Part shown: positions 23,559 through 28,382 of the stretch, in pieces
Layout of the letters: the number at the start of each line of letters is the position of its first letter
Position numbering within the stretch: position 1 is the stretch's first letter
DNA from: Pseudoxanthomonas sp. YR558
Lineage (GTDB): Bacteria > Pseudomonadota > Gammaproteobacteria > Xanthomonadales > Xanthomonadaceae
DNA: 64,000 nucleotides
Direction: 5' to 3'
Assembly (NCBI RefSeq): GCF_900116385.1
Contig: NZ_FPCI01000001.1
Coordinates: 1,116,001-1,180,000, forward strand
Program-made: the position numbers and the translations under genes
Notes under the pieces: model-generated
What the model was told of the DNA's origin: nothing
Databases searched by the model: none
The model's input: only the letters and a program-made list of their open reading frames with translations

Positions 23559-26366
23559 TCAGGCCGCCGCTGCATCTCCGCTGCGGTCGCGCTTCAACAC
23601 CGCCACCGGCTCCGCCCACGTGCTGCCGGCGCGACGCTTGCTGGTCGCCAGCACCAGGTCGGACGGCTCGAACACGTTCACGTTGTGCGTGATCGGCGTG
23701 GTCAGGATGTACTGCGCATCGGTCGAGCGCAGGAAGCGACCTACCTTCTCGATGTTGGCCACGTCCAGGTGCGCGAACGGTTCGTCGATGAAGACGAAGC
23801 CGCCCGGCTGCTCCTCGTCGCGCAGCAGCGCGACCAGCAACAGCAGCGACTTCATCACCTGCTGGCCGCCCGACGCTTCGCCGTCGTCCAGGCCGATCCA
23901 GCCCTTGCGATCGAAATCGAAGCGCACCGTCAGGCCGGCCTGCGCCAGCGCCGTGTCTTCGTTCACCAGTTCGGGCAGTTCCGCATCCACGCCGATGCCG
24001 GCCAGTTCGCCGAGCGAGGCCAGGTTGCGCTTGTAGCGACGCACGGTGGCACGCAGCACGTTGATGTAGGCGCCGCGTGCTTCTTCGGTCAGGCGGCGCG
24101 CACGATGCAAGTGGGTTTCACGCTTGCCGATGGCGGCTTCCAGTCCTGCGTGGTCGGCCGCGAACTTGTCGCGCAACGCGACGCACCCCTCGTCCTCGAC
24201 ATAACCGCCGCGCGCGATGCGCTCGTCGATGCGTTCGAGTTCACGCCGCACCGCACTGGCGCTTTCGTACTCCTCGCGCGCCGAACGTAGTGCCGCTGCG
24301 CTGCGCCACGCGACGGGCATCTGCGCACGGCGCTTGCGGAAGTCGACGATCCGCTGCGCGAGCGCCAGGCGTTCCTGGCCAATCTGCTGGCCACGCTCGT
24401 GCAGCTCGCCCGAGAGCGCCCTGATCTCGCCGGCGCGACTCGCTGCGGCGATGCCTTCGGCCTTGTCCTGCGCCTCCAGCGCGTCGAGCTGCTGGCGGGC
24501 GTCGGCCAACATCGCAGCGGCCCGTGCCGCAGCGTCCGCCAGCGCCGGGAGGCGTTCCGAGGCGTCGGCGAACTCCGCCGCACGCGTCACCAGCTCCTGG
24601 CCAGCGTCCAGGCCCAGCAGGCGCGACTGCGCGGCGTCCAATTGCTTGCGCAAGGTCGCCAAGGCGTCTTCGCGCTGCTGCGCCCGGTCCTGCAGCATCG
24701 CCTGCTCGGAGCGCAACGACACCAGGTTCGCCTGGCGGGCACCCGCGCCGAAATGATGCGCGCCACCGCCGACGTGGCGACCGCCACGCTGTTCGCGCAG
24801 GTAACCCTTGGCCGTGATCCAATCCTGGCCCTTCGGCAGCCGATGGCCCGCTTCCACGTCGGCCACGCGCTGGATGCGATCGAGGTGGCGCGGCAGCCAG
24901 GCGGGCGGATCGTCGGAGAACCGCACCACCTCCAGCAGCGAACCCTTGGTGGCTTTCTCCACCGGCGCGCGGTCGGCGACGACGAAATGACGGTACTGCA
25001 GTTGCTCGCCGAGGCGCCAGGCCTCACGCGCATCCTTCGGGTGCTCCAGCAGCACCAGGTGGCGATACGGCGCGAGCACGGCTTCCACCGCTGTCGCCCA
25101 GTCAGGATCGACGACATCGACCAGTTCGGTCAGCACCCGATGGCCGATGTTCTGGCGATCCAGTGCAGCGCGGAAATCGCGCTCGAACGACTCCACCACG
25201 CGACCGCCGCCGCTGAGAGCAGCAACCTGCGCCGTAATCTCGCCGGTACGCTGGCGATCGCGCTCAGCCTCGAGCTTCAGCTCGGCCTGGCGCCTGCGGC
25301 CGTCTTCCAGTTCCCGGCTCAGCACATCCACATCGGCAACGCCGCGCTCGGCCTGCAGCTTCGCAAGTTCGTCGTGACGGCGCACCAGCGAGTCGGCGTC
25401 GCGTGCATGGTCGCGCGCCTGCGTGAAGGCAGCCTCCGCCTGCTTGAGCTGCGCACGTGTATCGATCAAGTCCGTACCAGCGCGGTCGCGTTGCAGCTGC
25501 GCAGCCACTTCCTGCGCCAGCAGGTTCGCATGCGCACGCTGGCGCTCACGCAGCGCGCGACGCAGGCCGGTCAGGCGCGGGCGCGCACCTTCGATGGTGG
25601 CGCGCTGGTCCGCAAGTTCCACCTTCGGTGCGATCTCGGTCTGCAACCGGTTGCGTTGCGAGCGCAACGACAGGCCATCCTCGAACGAACGTACATCGGC
25701 GCGCGACGACTCCAGCCTGACATGCAGCTCGGCCAGGCCCTGCTGGAGCTGCGTGATCTCCTTCTCGACGTCGAACTGCTCGTTGCGGGCGCGCTGGTAG
25801 TCGTCCAGCACCGCCTTGTCTTCGAACACGTCGAACACCAGTTGCAGCAGTTCGCGCGGCGACAGCTGGCACAGCTTGTCGGTGGCGCCCTGCTCCAGCG
25901 TCAGTACGCGGCAGATCGCGCGGCTCAGGCCCGCGCCCGCCAGGCGCACGCGGTAGTCGCGCACGCCCAGCCAGTCGCCGCCCTGGTCGAGCGTTTCCAC
26001 CGGCACGTCGCCGGCGACGATCTGGTAGTCGCGCGACCAATCGCCGCCGCGCTTGCGGATCCGGCACGCGATGGTCACCTGCTCGTCCATGTGCGGGAAG
26101 AACGCGCGCTTGCCTCGCCGGTCGACCGGATTGCTGACCACCGCGCGCAGCCAGGCGTACGGCTTGCCGTTGTGGCGCAGGTAGGTCTTGTAGTCGCGGG
26201 CCATGTCGCGGTCGTCGATGGCCAGCAGCGTGCGCAGCGCATCGAGCAACGTGGTCTTGCCCGAGCCGTTGGGGCCCACGACGGTGATGATCGAGGCATC
26301 CAGCGGCAACGTGTAGCGCTGCCAGTAGTCCCAGTGGACGACTTCGAGGCTGCGGAACTCAAACAT
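23559..26366 (-). CDS. mksB: MksB/JetC-like SMC ATPase (condensin-type)
   Basis: A 935-residue SMC-fold ATPase, the motor of a MukBEF-like complex. Walker A GPNGSGKTT is at residues 31-39 after MFEFRSLEVVHWDYW. Heptad-rich arms span about 200-405 and 550-770. A hinge-like domain lies between (about 405-545, VDPDWATAVEAVLAPYRHLVLLEHP). The signature is EASGGQQVMKSLLLL (about 828), and Walker B GGFVFIDEPFAHLD (about 855) is followed by ILTTPITHNVNVFEPSD. The arms are short, fitting MksB rather than MukB or the longer Wadjet JetC. It overlaps mksE by 8 bp. A GCGGCGGCC-TCA-GGCCGCCGC hairpin is centred on its stop codon. No JetD/MksG gene follows. Function inferred: chromosome organisation or DNA surveillance. 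Confidence 0.85.
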   Translation of the reverse strand: MFEFRSLEVVHWDYWQRYTLPLDASIITVVGPNGSGKTTLLDALRTLLAIDDRDMARDYKTYLRHNGKPYAWLRAVVSNPVDRRGKRAFFPHMDEQVTIACRIRKRGGDWSRDYQIVAGDVPVETLDQGGDWLGVRDYRVRLAGAGLSRAICRVLTLEQGATDKLCQLSPRELLQLVFDVFEDKAVLDDYQRARNEQFDVEKEITQLQQGLAELHVRLESSRADVRSFEDGLSLRSQRNRLQTEIAPKVELADQRATIEGARPRLTGLRRALRERQRAHANLLAQEVAAQLQRDRAGTDLIDTRAQLKQAEAAFTQARDHARDADSLVRRHDELAKLQAERGVADVDVLSRELEDGRRRQAELKLEAERDRQRTGEITAQVAALSGGGRVVESFERDFRAALDRQNIGHRVLTELVDVVDPDWATAVEAVLAPYRHLVLLEHPKDAREAWRLGEQLQYRHFVVADRAPVEKATKGSLLEVVRFSDDPPAWLPRHLDRIQRVADVEAGHRLPKGQDWITAKGYLREQRGGRHVGGGAHHFGAGARQANLVSLRSEQAMLQDRAQQREDALATLRKQLDAAQSRLLGLDAGQELVTRAAEFADASERLPALADAAARAAAMLADARQQLDALEAQDKAEGIAAASRAGEIRALSGELHERGQQIGQERLALAQRIVDFRKRRAQMPVAWRSAAALRSAREEYESASAVRRELERIDERIARGGYVEDEGCVALRDKFAADHAGLEAAIGKRETHLHRARRLTEEARGAYINVLRATVRRYKRNLASLGELAGIGVDAELPELVNEDTALAQAGLTVRFDFDRKGWIGLDDGEASGGQQVMKSLLLLVALLRDEEQPGGFVFIDEPFAHLDVANIEKVGRFLRSTDAQYILTTPITHNVNVFEPSDLVLATSKRRAGSTWAEPVAVLKRDRSGDAAAA

Positions 26367-27066: not shown

Positions 27067-28382
27067 GCGGTACGGGCTTTCTTCTTGCGGGAAGGCGCAG
27101 GTTCGGCCTGCGCCTGGGGTGCCTGCGGCAGCAGGCGGCCGCGGCTCATGTAGGCCACACCGGCGCGCTGCACGGATTCGAATTCGGCATCGACATGCCA
27201 CTGCATCGGTAGCTGCGCGAGCGATGCCGCCACGCCGTTGCGATTTTCCGCACCGGCGTCGCCGATCAGGCCCAGCAGCGACAACCGGTATGCGCTGACG
27301 GCGAAACCGTCCTGCGGCACCCAGTCCGACAGCGGCGCTTCGGCGTCGAGCGCGGCGAGTTGGTCGAACCACTGCTCGGCATGGCCGTAGTCGTTCTGCA
27401 CGACCGGCGCCTGGGTGTCCACGGGCGCGGCCTGCGCCGGCGGCAACGAGGCGTCGTCCTGTGCCGCGCGCTCGCGTTCGACCAGTTCGTATTCGGCCAC
27501 GTCCAGCGCGATCGGTCCCAGTGCGAACGCCGGTTGCGGCATCCGCGCGAGCACATCGTCCGCCAGGTCCGCGAGTGCGGCGACATCGAGCGCGCGCAGG
27601 TAGCGGTTCACATCGGACGACGACAGGCCGCTGGCGCCGAGGTGTACGCGGTGGCGGTCGAGCTGGTTGAGTGCACGCTGGAACACCGATGCCTGCCGCA
27701 GCAACGCGCTTTGCGCGCGACCGATCTGCTGGGCGACGCGGTGGGTGGCGGTGTCGAGCTCGCCGTCGGCGGCGATATCGCGGATCAGCGCCGTGCCCTT
27801 CTCCACCCACTGCCAGACCGACTGCAAGGTATCGGCGGCGCGCTGGATGCGGTGCTCGGAACCGCTGAGTACGGCCTGGTCGAAGTCCTCGCGCAATTCA
27901 TTGAGACGCGACAGCAGGTGTTGCAGATCGTCGGCACCGACACGCCCCATCGCCTGGCCCGCGGCGAGCTGCGCGGTGACATAGGCCAGCTCGTCGCCTT
28001 CGCGGTTGAACTGCAGCAACAGGCCGATCGAGGCCAGCGCCTGGCGGCCCACCGGGCTGATGCGGTAGCGCTGGCTGGCGGCCTCCCACAGCAGCAGGCC
28101 GTTCTCGCGCAAGCGGCCGAGCACGGTGTCGAACTTGACCGGGTCCAGGTAGGCGAATTGGTCGCGCAGTTCCTGCGGCGACCAGTCAGGCGCCTGCCCG
28201 CGCTCGCCGATGGTGCGCAGGACCAGCAGGCGCACCATGACGCTCTCCTCGCCGCCGTGGAAGAGCGTCGAGAAGGCCCGCAGCAGGTCGCGGGCGTTGA
28301 GCAGGGGGTGGAGGTCCGGCAGGTCCGCGGCGGCAATGCCGGCGCGCAGGTAGTCGTGCAGGGGCGGTGAGGCGATATCCAT
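27063..28382 (-). CDS. mksF: MksF/JetA-like kleisin subunit
   Basis: A 439-residue protein occupying the kleisin position of a MukBEF-like operon. Residues 45-125 form a winged-helix-like domain ([64 protein letters not shown]). The middle (about 130-300) is a long helical region that could dimerise. The C-terminal part (about 340-420, [17 protein letters not shown]) would bind the SMC head. The tail SRKKKARTA is basic. The start at 28382 was chosen because [17 protein letters not shown] opens a folded region; a longer frame overlaps the fadH side. It is the first gene of the operon, divergent from fadH across 169 bp. Confidence 0.8.

Follow-up and report, generated by a model that had tools for sequence, protein, structure and literature searches.

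The window analysed here, a stretch of 64,000 nucleotides from Pseudoxanthomonas sp. YR558, carries an operon encoding a kleisin, a kite protein and an SMC (structural maintenance of chromosomes) ATPase (here denoted the focal trio; positions are those of the window). Judged by sequence, the trio most likely belongs to a diverged family of Wadjet-related operons, mainly of Lysobacterales, in which some members carry a fourth gene for the nuclease JetD. On balance we think it probable that the trio encodes a disarmed SMC complex, which derives from a Wadjet system, has lost JetD and plays a condensin-like role beside SMC-ScpAB, comparable to that of MksBEF in Pseudomonas.

A JetD-less operon in a family that includes JetD

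The operon is intact and occupies 28382-23559 on the minus strand. It consists of three complete open reading frames (ORFs) encoding a MukF/JetA-like kleisin (27063..28382, minus strand, 439 amino acids), a candidate MukE/JetB-like kite (26359..27066, minus strand, 235 amino acids) and an SMC/MksB/JetC-like ATPase (23559..26366, minus strand, 935 amino acids). The kleisin and kite genes overlap by 4 bp and the kite and SMC genes by 8 bp. The original prediction, made from the letters of the window, had described just such a complete, overlapping operon with no nuclease gene adjoining it, and both statements hold: the SMC stop codon is separated from the ORF of a convergent oxidoreductase by 22 bp (23537..23558), the position that JetD occupies in relatives.

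Relatives were collected at E <= 0.001; with 8000 candidates scored per search, at least 903 were obtained for the kleisin and at least 1671 for the kite. Scanning the species genomes of GTDB, with the best 80 of 84 stretches kept, gave 79 named loci, 77 in Lysobacterales and two in Burkholderiales (L151 and L152; 40% identity). Over 369 genomes sampled across the class, the kite profile matched only the host genome and one relative. Three complete genes stand in the same order in 72 of the 79 loci; those dropped were the incomplete operons L094, L109, L117, L135, L139 and L151, and L141, whose SMC ORF has 612 amino acids. The 75 operons compared below are these 72, the focal trio and those of genus genomes L031 and L037 (L039, a second entry for the L118 genome, was omitted). 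Several genomes enter both the genus counts and the 75-operon counts. Upstream, 36 of the 79 loci have a fadH-like gene. Together with the constant gene order this suggests that the operon is old in Lysobacteraceae and has mostly been passed down at its original site. Of the 75 operons, 67 share the 8-bp overlap of kite and SMC and 40 the 4-bp overlap of kleisin and kite, with start codons chosen by script.

In some loci of the family the gene after the SMC gene encodes a protein of ~400 amino acids. Five of five such proteins tested match PADLOC JetD1 (best E 2.6e-14), and two of the five score above the DUF2399 cut-off. As located by tblastn, JetD is present in nine of the 79 named loci (L088, L093, L104, L114, L115, L116, L118, L123 and L143), that is, in 9/75 operons, and is absent from 66/75, the focal trio included. 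In all nine it starts within the SMC stop codon, with a 4-bp overlap in seven and a 1-bp overlap in two. The nine proteins have VENRTSFE-like and DPDPAG stretches in common; E273, D322 and D324 (L116 numbering), which we take to be the TOPRIM acidic residues, are invariant. With a JetD relative at the SMC stop in nine of its operons, the family thus includes four-gene Wadjet-like operons. One of them, in Pseudoxanthomonas wuyuanensis (L116), lies at the same chromosomal site as the focal trio.

In some loci the position after the SMC gene holds other, lineage-specific genes: a fructosamine kinase-like gene in L082, L083, L084, L086 and L103 (Pfam on L082 only), a gene for an EF-hand protein in Dyella/Luteibacter loci (tested for L119) and one for a DUF938 methyltransferase in L107, L108 and L113 (tested for L108). 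These look like later cargo. Two strains titled Luteibacter jiangsuensis differ, one having an operon with JetD (L143) and the other an operon without it (L148), and in the SMC tree the two do not group as sisters.

Identity of the three subunits

In the focal SMC protein Walker A lies at residue 31, the SGGQ signature at 832 and Walker B at 857, and all three motifs are present in 75/75 family SMCs, the 612-amino-acid protein of L141 having been dropped beforehand. It matches SMC_N (E 3.9e-17) and AAA_29 (E 1e-9). A single-sequence PDB search ranks SMC heads first, and the best PDB match of the family profile is JetC (8dk2, E 3.4e-8). The Pfam SMC hinge is weak in the focal protein (E 0.015) and reaches E 9.2e-5 in the family, in which 10 of 25 members score at E <= 0.01; the predicted set of Walker A, hinge-like domain, SGGQ and Walker B is borne out. 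An SbcC/Rad50 identity, with an ATPase lacking an SMC hinge, is contradicted by this hinge in the family and by the absence of a CxxC zinc hook from the focal SMC. The protein had also been called short. The type I JetC that relatives encode at this site is longer (about 1140-1180 amino acids), but the focal SMC is of normal size for its own family, where the SMC has 929-948 amino acids across the 75 operons.

PADLOC, Pfam and NCBIfam returned no JetA/JetB or other fitting family for the focal kleisin and kite, and PDB sequence searches with both, as single sequences and as profiles, gave nothing significant. The kleisin, whose structure model is of moderate confidence, has an N-terminal winged helix, middle helices and a C-terminal strand/helix part. 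MukF leads both fold comparisons with JetA close, at middling scores, and Foldseek gave no match at E 0.001 or better; these best long matches agree with the kleisin-like protein that had been predicted. For the kite, an MksE/JetB-like identity is consistent with gene order, size and weak matches to DUF4194 in five of 20 diverse family kites (best E 5.9e-5), but the focal kite itself is unmatched, its structure model is poor (pLDDT, predicted local distance difference test, 53) and comparison of the kite profile with the DUF4194 profile is not significant. Kites are extended to 318-339 amino acids in one Lysobacter clade (L090, L092, L095-L097 and L099) and to 434 in L152 of Burkholderiales, with starts chosen by script.

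One chromosomal slot, two Wadjet-type lineages

The trio is present in 12 of 37 genomes of the genus, flanked in 12/12 by the fadH-like gene on one side and the oxidoreductase gene on the other, and one of these (P. wuyuanensis) has JetD. We examined this slot in 17 of the 25 genus genomes lacking the trio, 29 slots in all. In seven relatives (L163-L169) it is occupied by a canonical type I Wadjet in the orientation opposite to the trio. The slot proteins of L168 match PADLOC JetA1 (7.9e-237), JetB1 (1.9e-98), JetC1 (0) and JetD1 (4.2e-152), and in L163 and L165-L168 the type I operon next to the fadH-like gene contains a near full-length JetD match. The far-side oxidoreductase is present in six of the seven; the L164 contig ends before it. 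Both flanking genes, with no match to the trio or type I Wadjet between them, were found in L170, L171 and L179, and the oxidoreductase was not found in seven trio-less loci (L172-L178). About 1.3 kb separates the two flanking genes in L179 (9730-10941) and L171, and the one ORF tested there, that of L179, has no NCBIfam match.

Two of the seven type I operons have JetD as their one broken gene; JetA, JetB and JetC are full length and free of internal stops. The JetD remnant of L164 comprises residues 1-37, and those of L169, a single-contig genome, residues 1-108 and 371-402 in different frames. In both operons the direction of change is loss of JetD, in a lineage distinct from the focal family. 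Together with the JetD-less trios, these breakages show one slot holding two distinct Wadjet-type lineages in nuclease-less form. Within a single genus the slot therefore has the states trio with or without JetD, type I with JetD intact or broken, and neither.

Search of the host genome

The original prediction had suggested that the trio might recruit a nuclease encoded elsewhere, and had proposed a genome-wide search for JetD/MksG and for smc-scpAB. Searching the host genome (3.79 Mb) with PF09983 revealed no JetD, the C. glutamicum control being positive; PF09664 matched neither the host nor any other searched genome and is uninformative alone. The family JetD profile, which matches nine other genomes of 61, had no match in the host (30 of 51 first-look candidates scored), nor in any of the 11 JetD-less genus carriers of the trio, host included. 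These searches, aimed at JetD, give no support to the recruitment proposal, though an unrelated nuclease would lie outside their scope. A weak JetD-like match (E 2.3e-7) was seen in a genus member at G009:C9:1669907-1670353, away from the slot. SMC and ScpA were both found in the host, as a 1189-amino-acid SMC frame at C1:76122 and ScpA at C1:50056.

The slot and these searches bear on whether the trio might be a residual anti-plasmid system without its own cutter, which would recognise a small circle by extruding it completely and would go on to block, silence or mis-segregate it, or pass it to an unrelated host nuclease. That the same slot holds a canonical Wadjet in seven relatives, that no slot of the 29 examined contains both systems and that the fadH tree of the 29 genomes, in which several forks are weak, requires at least three switches between trio and type I would all fit such a function, as would the N-terminus of the kite, which by eye is still conserved where JetD is missing. 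Yet in B. subtilis all four Jet subunits are described as needed against plasmids (PMC10586767), the 11 JetD-less carriers lack any JetD match, and inheritance in place, as indicated by the fadH-like gene, is atypical for a mobile defence gene. We regard this explanation as unlikely, though deserving of serious attention.

Loss or gain of JetD

In a quick-method tree of 75 SMC rows, both deep clades include operons with JetD, whose distribution needs at least 8 changes. If JetD stood at the base and is never regained, the tree requires 25 losses, or 18 once forks under 95 are collapsed. Among the nine JetD operons, pairwise distances of JetD and SMC are correlated (Mantel r 0.70, p 5e-5); several forks of the nine-row JetD and SMC trees differ or are weak. 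We used only this nine-row distance comparison, as the JetD tree with a type I outgroup had unsettled bootstrap values and a wrong ORF in outgroup row L168. Loss is favoured by the JetD start, which always lies inside the SMC stop codon, and by the common history of the two genes. The nuclease-free state is probably derived, with JetD lost in the focal lineage and repeatedly in most relatives. Of the original prediction, the assignment to the MksBEF/JetABC class without an adjoining nuclease stands; a probable loss of JetD was not foreseen there. GTGA/ATGA occurs at the SMC stop in 18/66 JetD-less operons, which we leave uninterpreted.

Conversely, the nuclease-free trio could be ancestral and JetD acquired several times. 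JetD is after all absent from most operons, and parsimony without polarity fits the SMC tree equally with 8 gains, the unconstrained minimum. In addition, a search for JetD remnants after the SMC gene of JetD-less family members (hmmsearch --max, 77 loci; L082 and L128 have less than 1.3 kb of flank) gave nothing better than E 0.84. Independent acquisitions are nevertheless hard to reconcile with a JetD start inside the SMC stop codon in all nine operons and with the correlated distances, and loss is the direction visible in the type I operons of L164 and L169 in the same slot, albeit in a different Wadjet lineage. Repeated gain thus appears rather improbable.

Selection on the JetD-less core

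The ratio of nonsynonymous to synonymous substitution rates (dN/dS) in eight pairs of JetD-less operons is 0.026-0.068 for the SMC, 0.025-0.119 for the kleisin and 0.015-0.277 for the kite. Six pairs of a JetD-bearing and a JetD-less operon gave 0.065-0.388 over the three genes, values that overlap or are higher. JetD-less cores are under strong purifying selection and, as the low ratios in the eight pairs indicate, show no sign of relaxation. A rate change linked to JetD was also considered and rejected: the SMCs of four of the nine JetD-bearing operons (L143, L123, L093 and L088) have clearly longer branches than their JetD-less sisters and the others do not, giving no consistent signal (flanking controls were few, 0-6 genes each).

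The trio could also be what is left of a defunct defence system in decay: its nuclease is gone, and the authors of a survey of Stenotrophomonas maltophilia call the JetD-less type I Wadjet conserved and frequent there probably inactive (PMC11680222). One truncated SMC, from a metagenome-assembled genome (L141, outside our counts), also points that way. Strong purifying selection, ATPase motifs in every SMC of the set and the persistence of 66 JetD-less operons across the order make decay very improbable.

Neighbouring genes

The convergent neighbour is an oxidoreductase, as predicted, of the zinc-binding alcohol dehydrogenase type. The divergent upstream gene had been called fadH. It encodes an Oxidored_FMN protein to which FadH/OYE-type models are nearest, but scores below the cut-offs of those models. 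Between the divergent kleisin and fadH-like genes lies a spacer of 166 bp (28383..28548, given the chosen fadH-like start at 28549), a putative promoter region.

Among 274 genomes of the class, 10 of 42 with DUF4194 gave no JetD_C match (counted by hand); because assemblies are draft and JetD may be diverged, this is an upper bound on JetD-less carriers.

Proposed function and relation to known systems

SMC, kleisin and kite proteins are described as assembling into a dimerising complex, powered by ATP, with DNA held at its heads (PMC10586767, PMC10512200), and JetD as cutting once a small circle has been fully extruded (PMC12287153). We propose that the ancestral operon of the family carried a fourth gene, for the TOPRIM nuclease JetD, and that the focal lineage and most relatives would have discarded it while retaining the motor. 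The complex, of the MukBEF/JetABC class, would load on DNA and, as JetD is absent, would translocate, extruding or bridging loops without cutting. It would probably serve as a second condensin beside SMC-ScpAB, comparable to MksBEF of Pseudomonas aeruginosa, which is reported to coexist with SMC-ScpAB and to share chromosome organisation with it (PMC7485682).

Several points weigh against this proposal. To the missing remnants and the parsimony of gains must be added the kite, whose assignment, of moderate confidence, is the weakest of the three. The likeness to P. aeruginosa MksBEF is one of gene set and description. Moreover, with the trio in only a third of the genus genomes (12/37) and a defence system in its slot in close relatives, an accessory function suits the data as well as a condensin does.

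It has been suggested in a review that MksBEF arose from JetABCD via loss of JetD, and a derivation of chromosomal condensins such as MksBEF from plasmid defence, with the cutter lost on the way, is still a proposal (PMC10586767). It is quite possible, if somewhat short of probable, that two Wadjet-type lineages of Lysobacterales repeatedly lose only the nuclease, that JetABC alone is a selected working state, and that condensin-like complexes were recruited from plasmid defence repeatedly, not once. Since the states stand side by side in one genus and slot, a JetABC core without cutting can be tested in natural pairs of close relatives, and with it the conversion of a defence system to another role. 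The family also adds Wadjet-like operons whose kleisin and kite are unnamed by the models used, and whose JetD these models recognise weakly. Stenotrophomonas maltophilia belongs to the same bacterial family as the focal host.

The JetD-less type I Wadjet of that species conserves JetABC without JetD, as the focal trio does, but is recognised as type I and lies at another site, in an island flanked by yfcA and mlaF and with RecBCD (PMC11680222). In Xylella, the pseudogenes reported in some strains are JetA and JetC, not JetD (PMC9148166). Type I Wadjet in general (JetABCD, or MksBEFG) has the same set of subunits as the family; the family's SMC profile finds JetC as its best PDB match, its JetD matches JetD1, and type I fills the same slot in sister species. 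The focal trio differs in lacking JetD and any match to JetA/JetB models, in its SMC of 935 amino acids and in its opposite orientation in the slot. MukF of MukBEF is the best predicted fold match of the focal kleisin, but MukBEF is described as having replaced SMC-ScpAB in its hosts (PMC10586767), whereas the trio coexists with SMC and ScpA. MksBEF of P. aeruginosa is likewise a kleisin-kite-SMC set without a nuclease in a genome with SMC (PMC7485682), matching a focal host with SMC and ScpA; it differs, in a comparison by gene set only, in that some members of the focal family still have JetD. Among the titles and abstract openings that our searches of open-licence literature returned, none dealt with repeated loss of JetD from a core kept under selection, or with two Wadjet types alternating at one site. 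Nuclease-free MksBEF and the JetD-less type I Wadjet of Stenotrophomonas are already known; new, within that literature, are a diverged family, its mixed armed and disarmed state, a slot shared with type I, and breakages confined to JetD.

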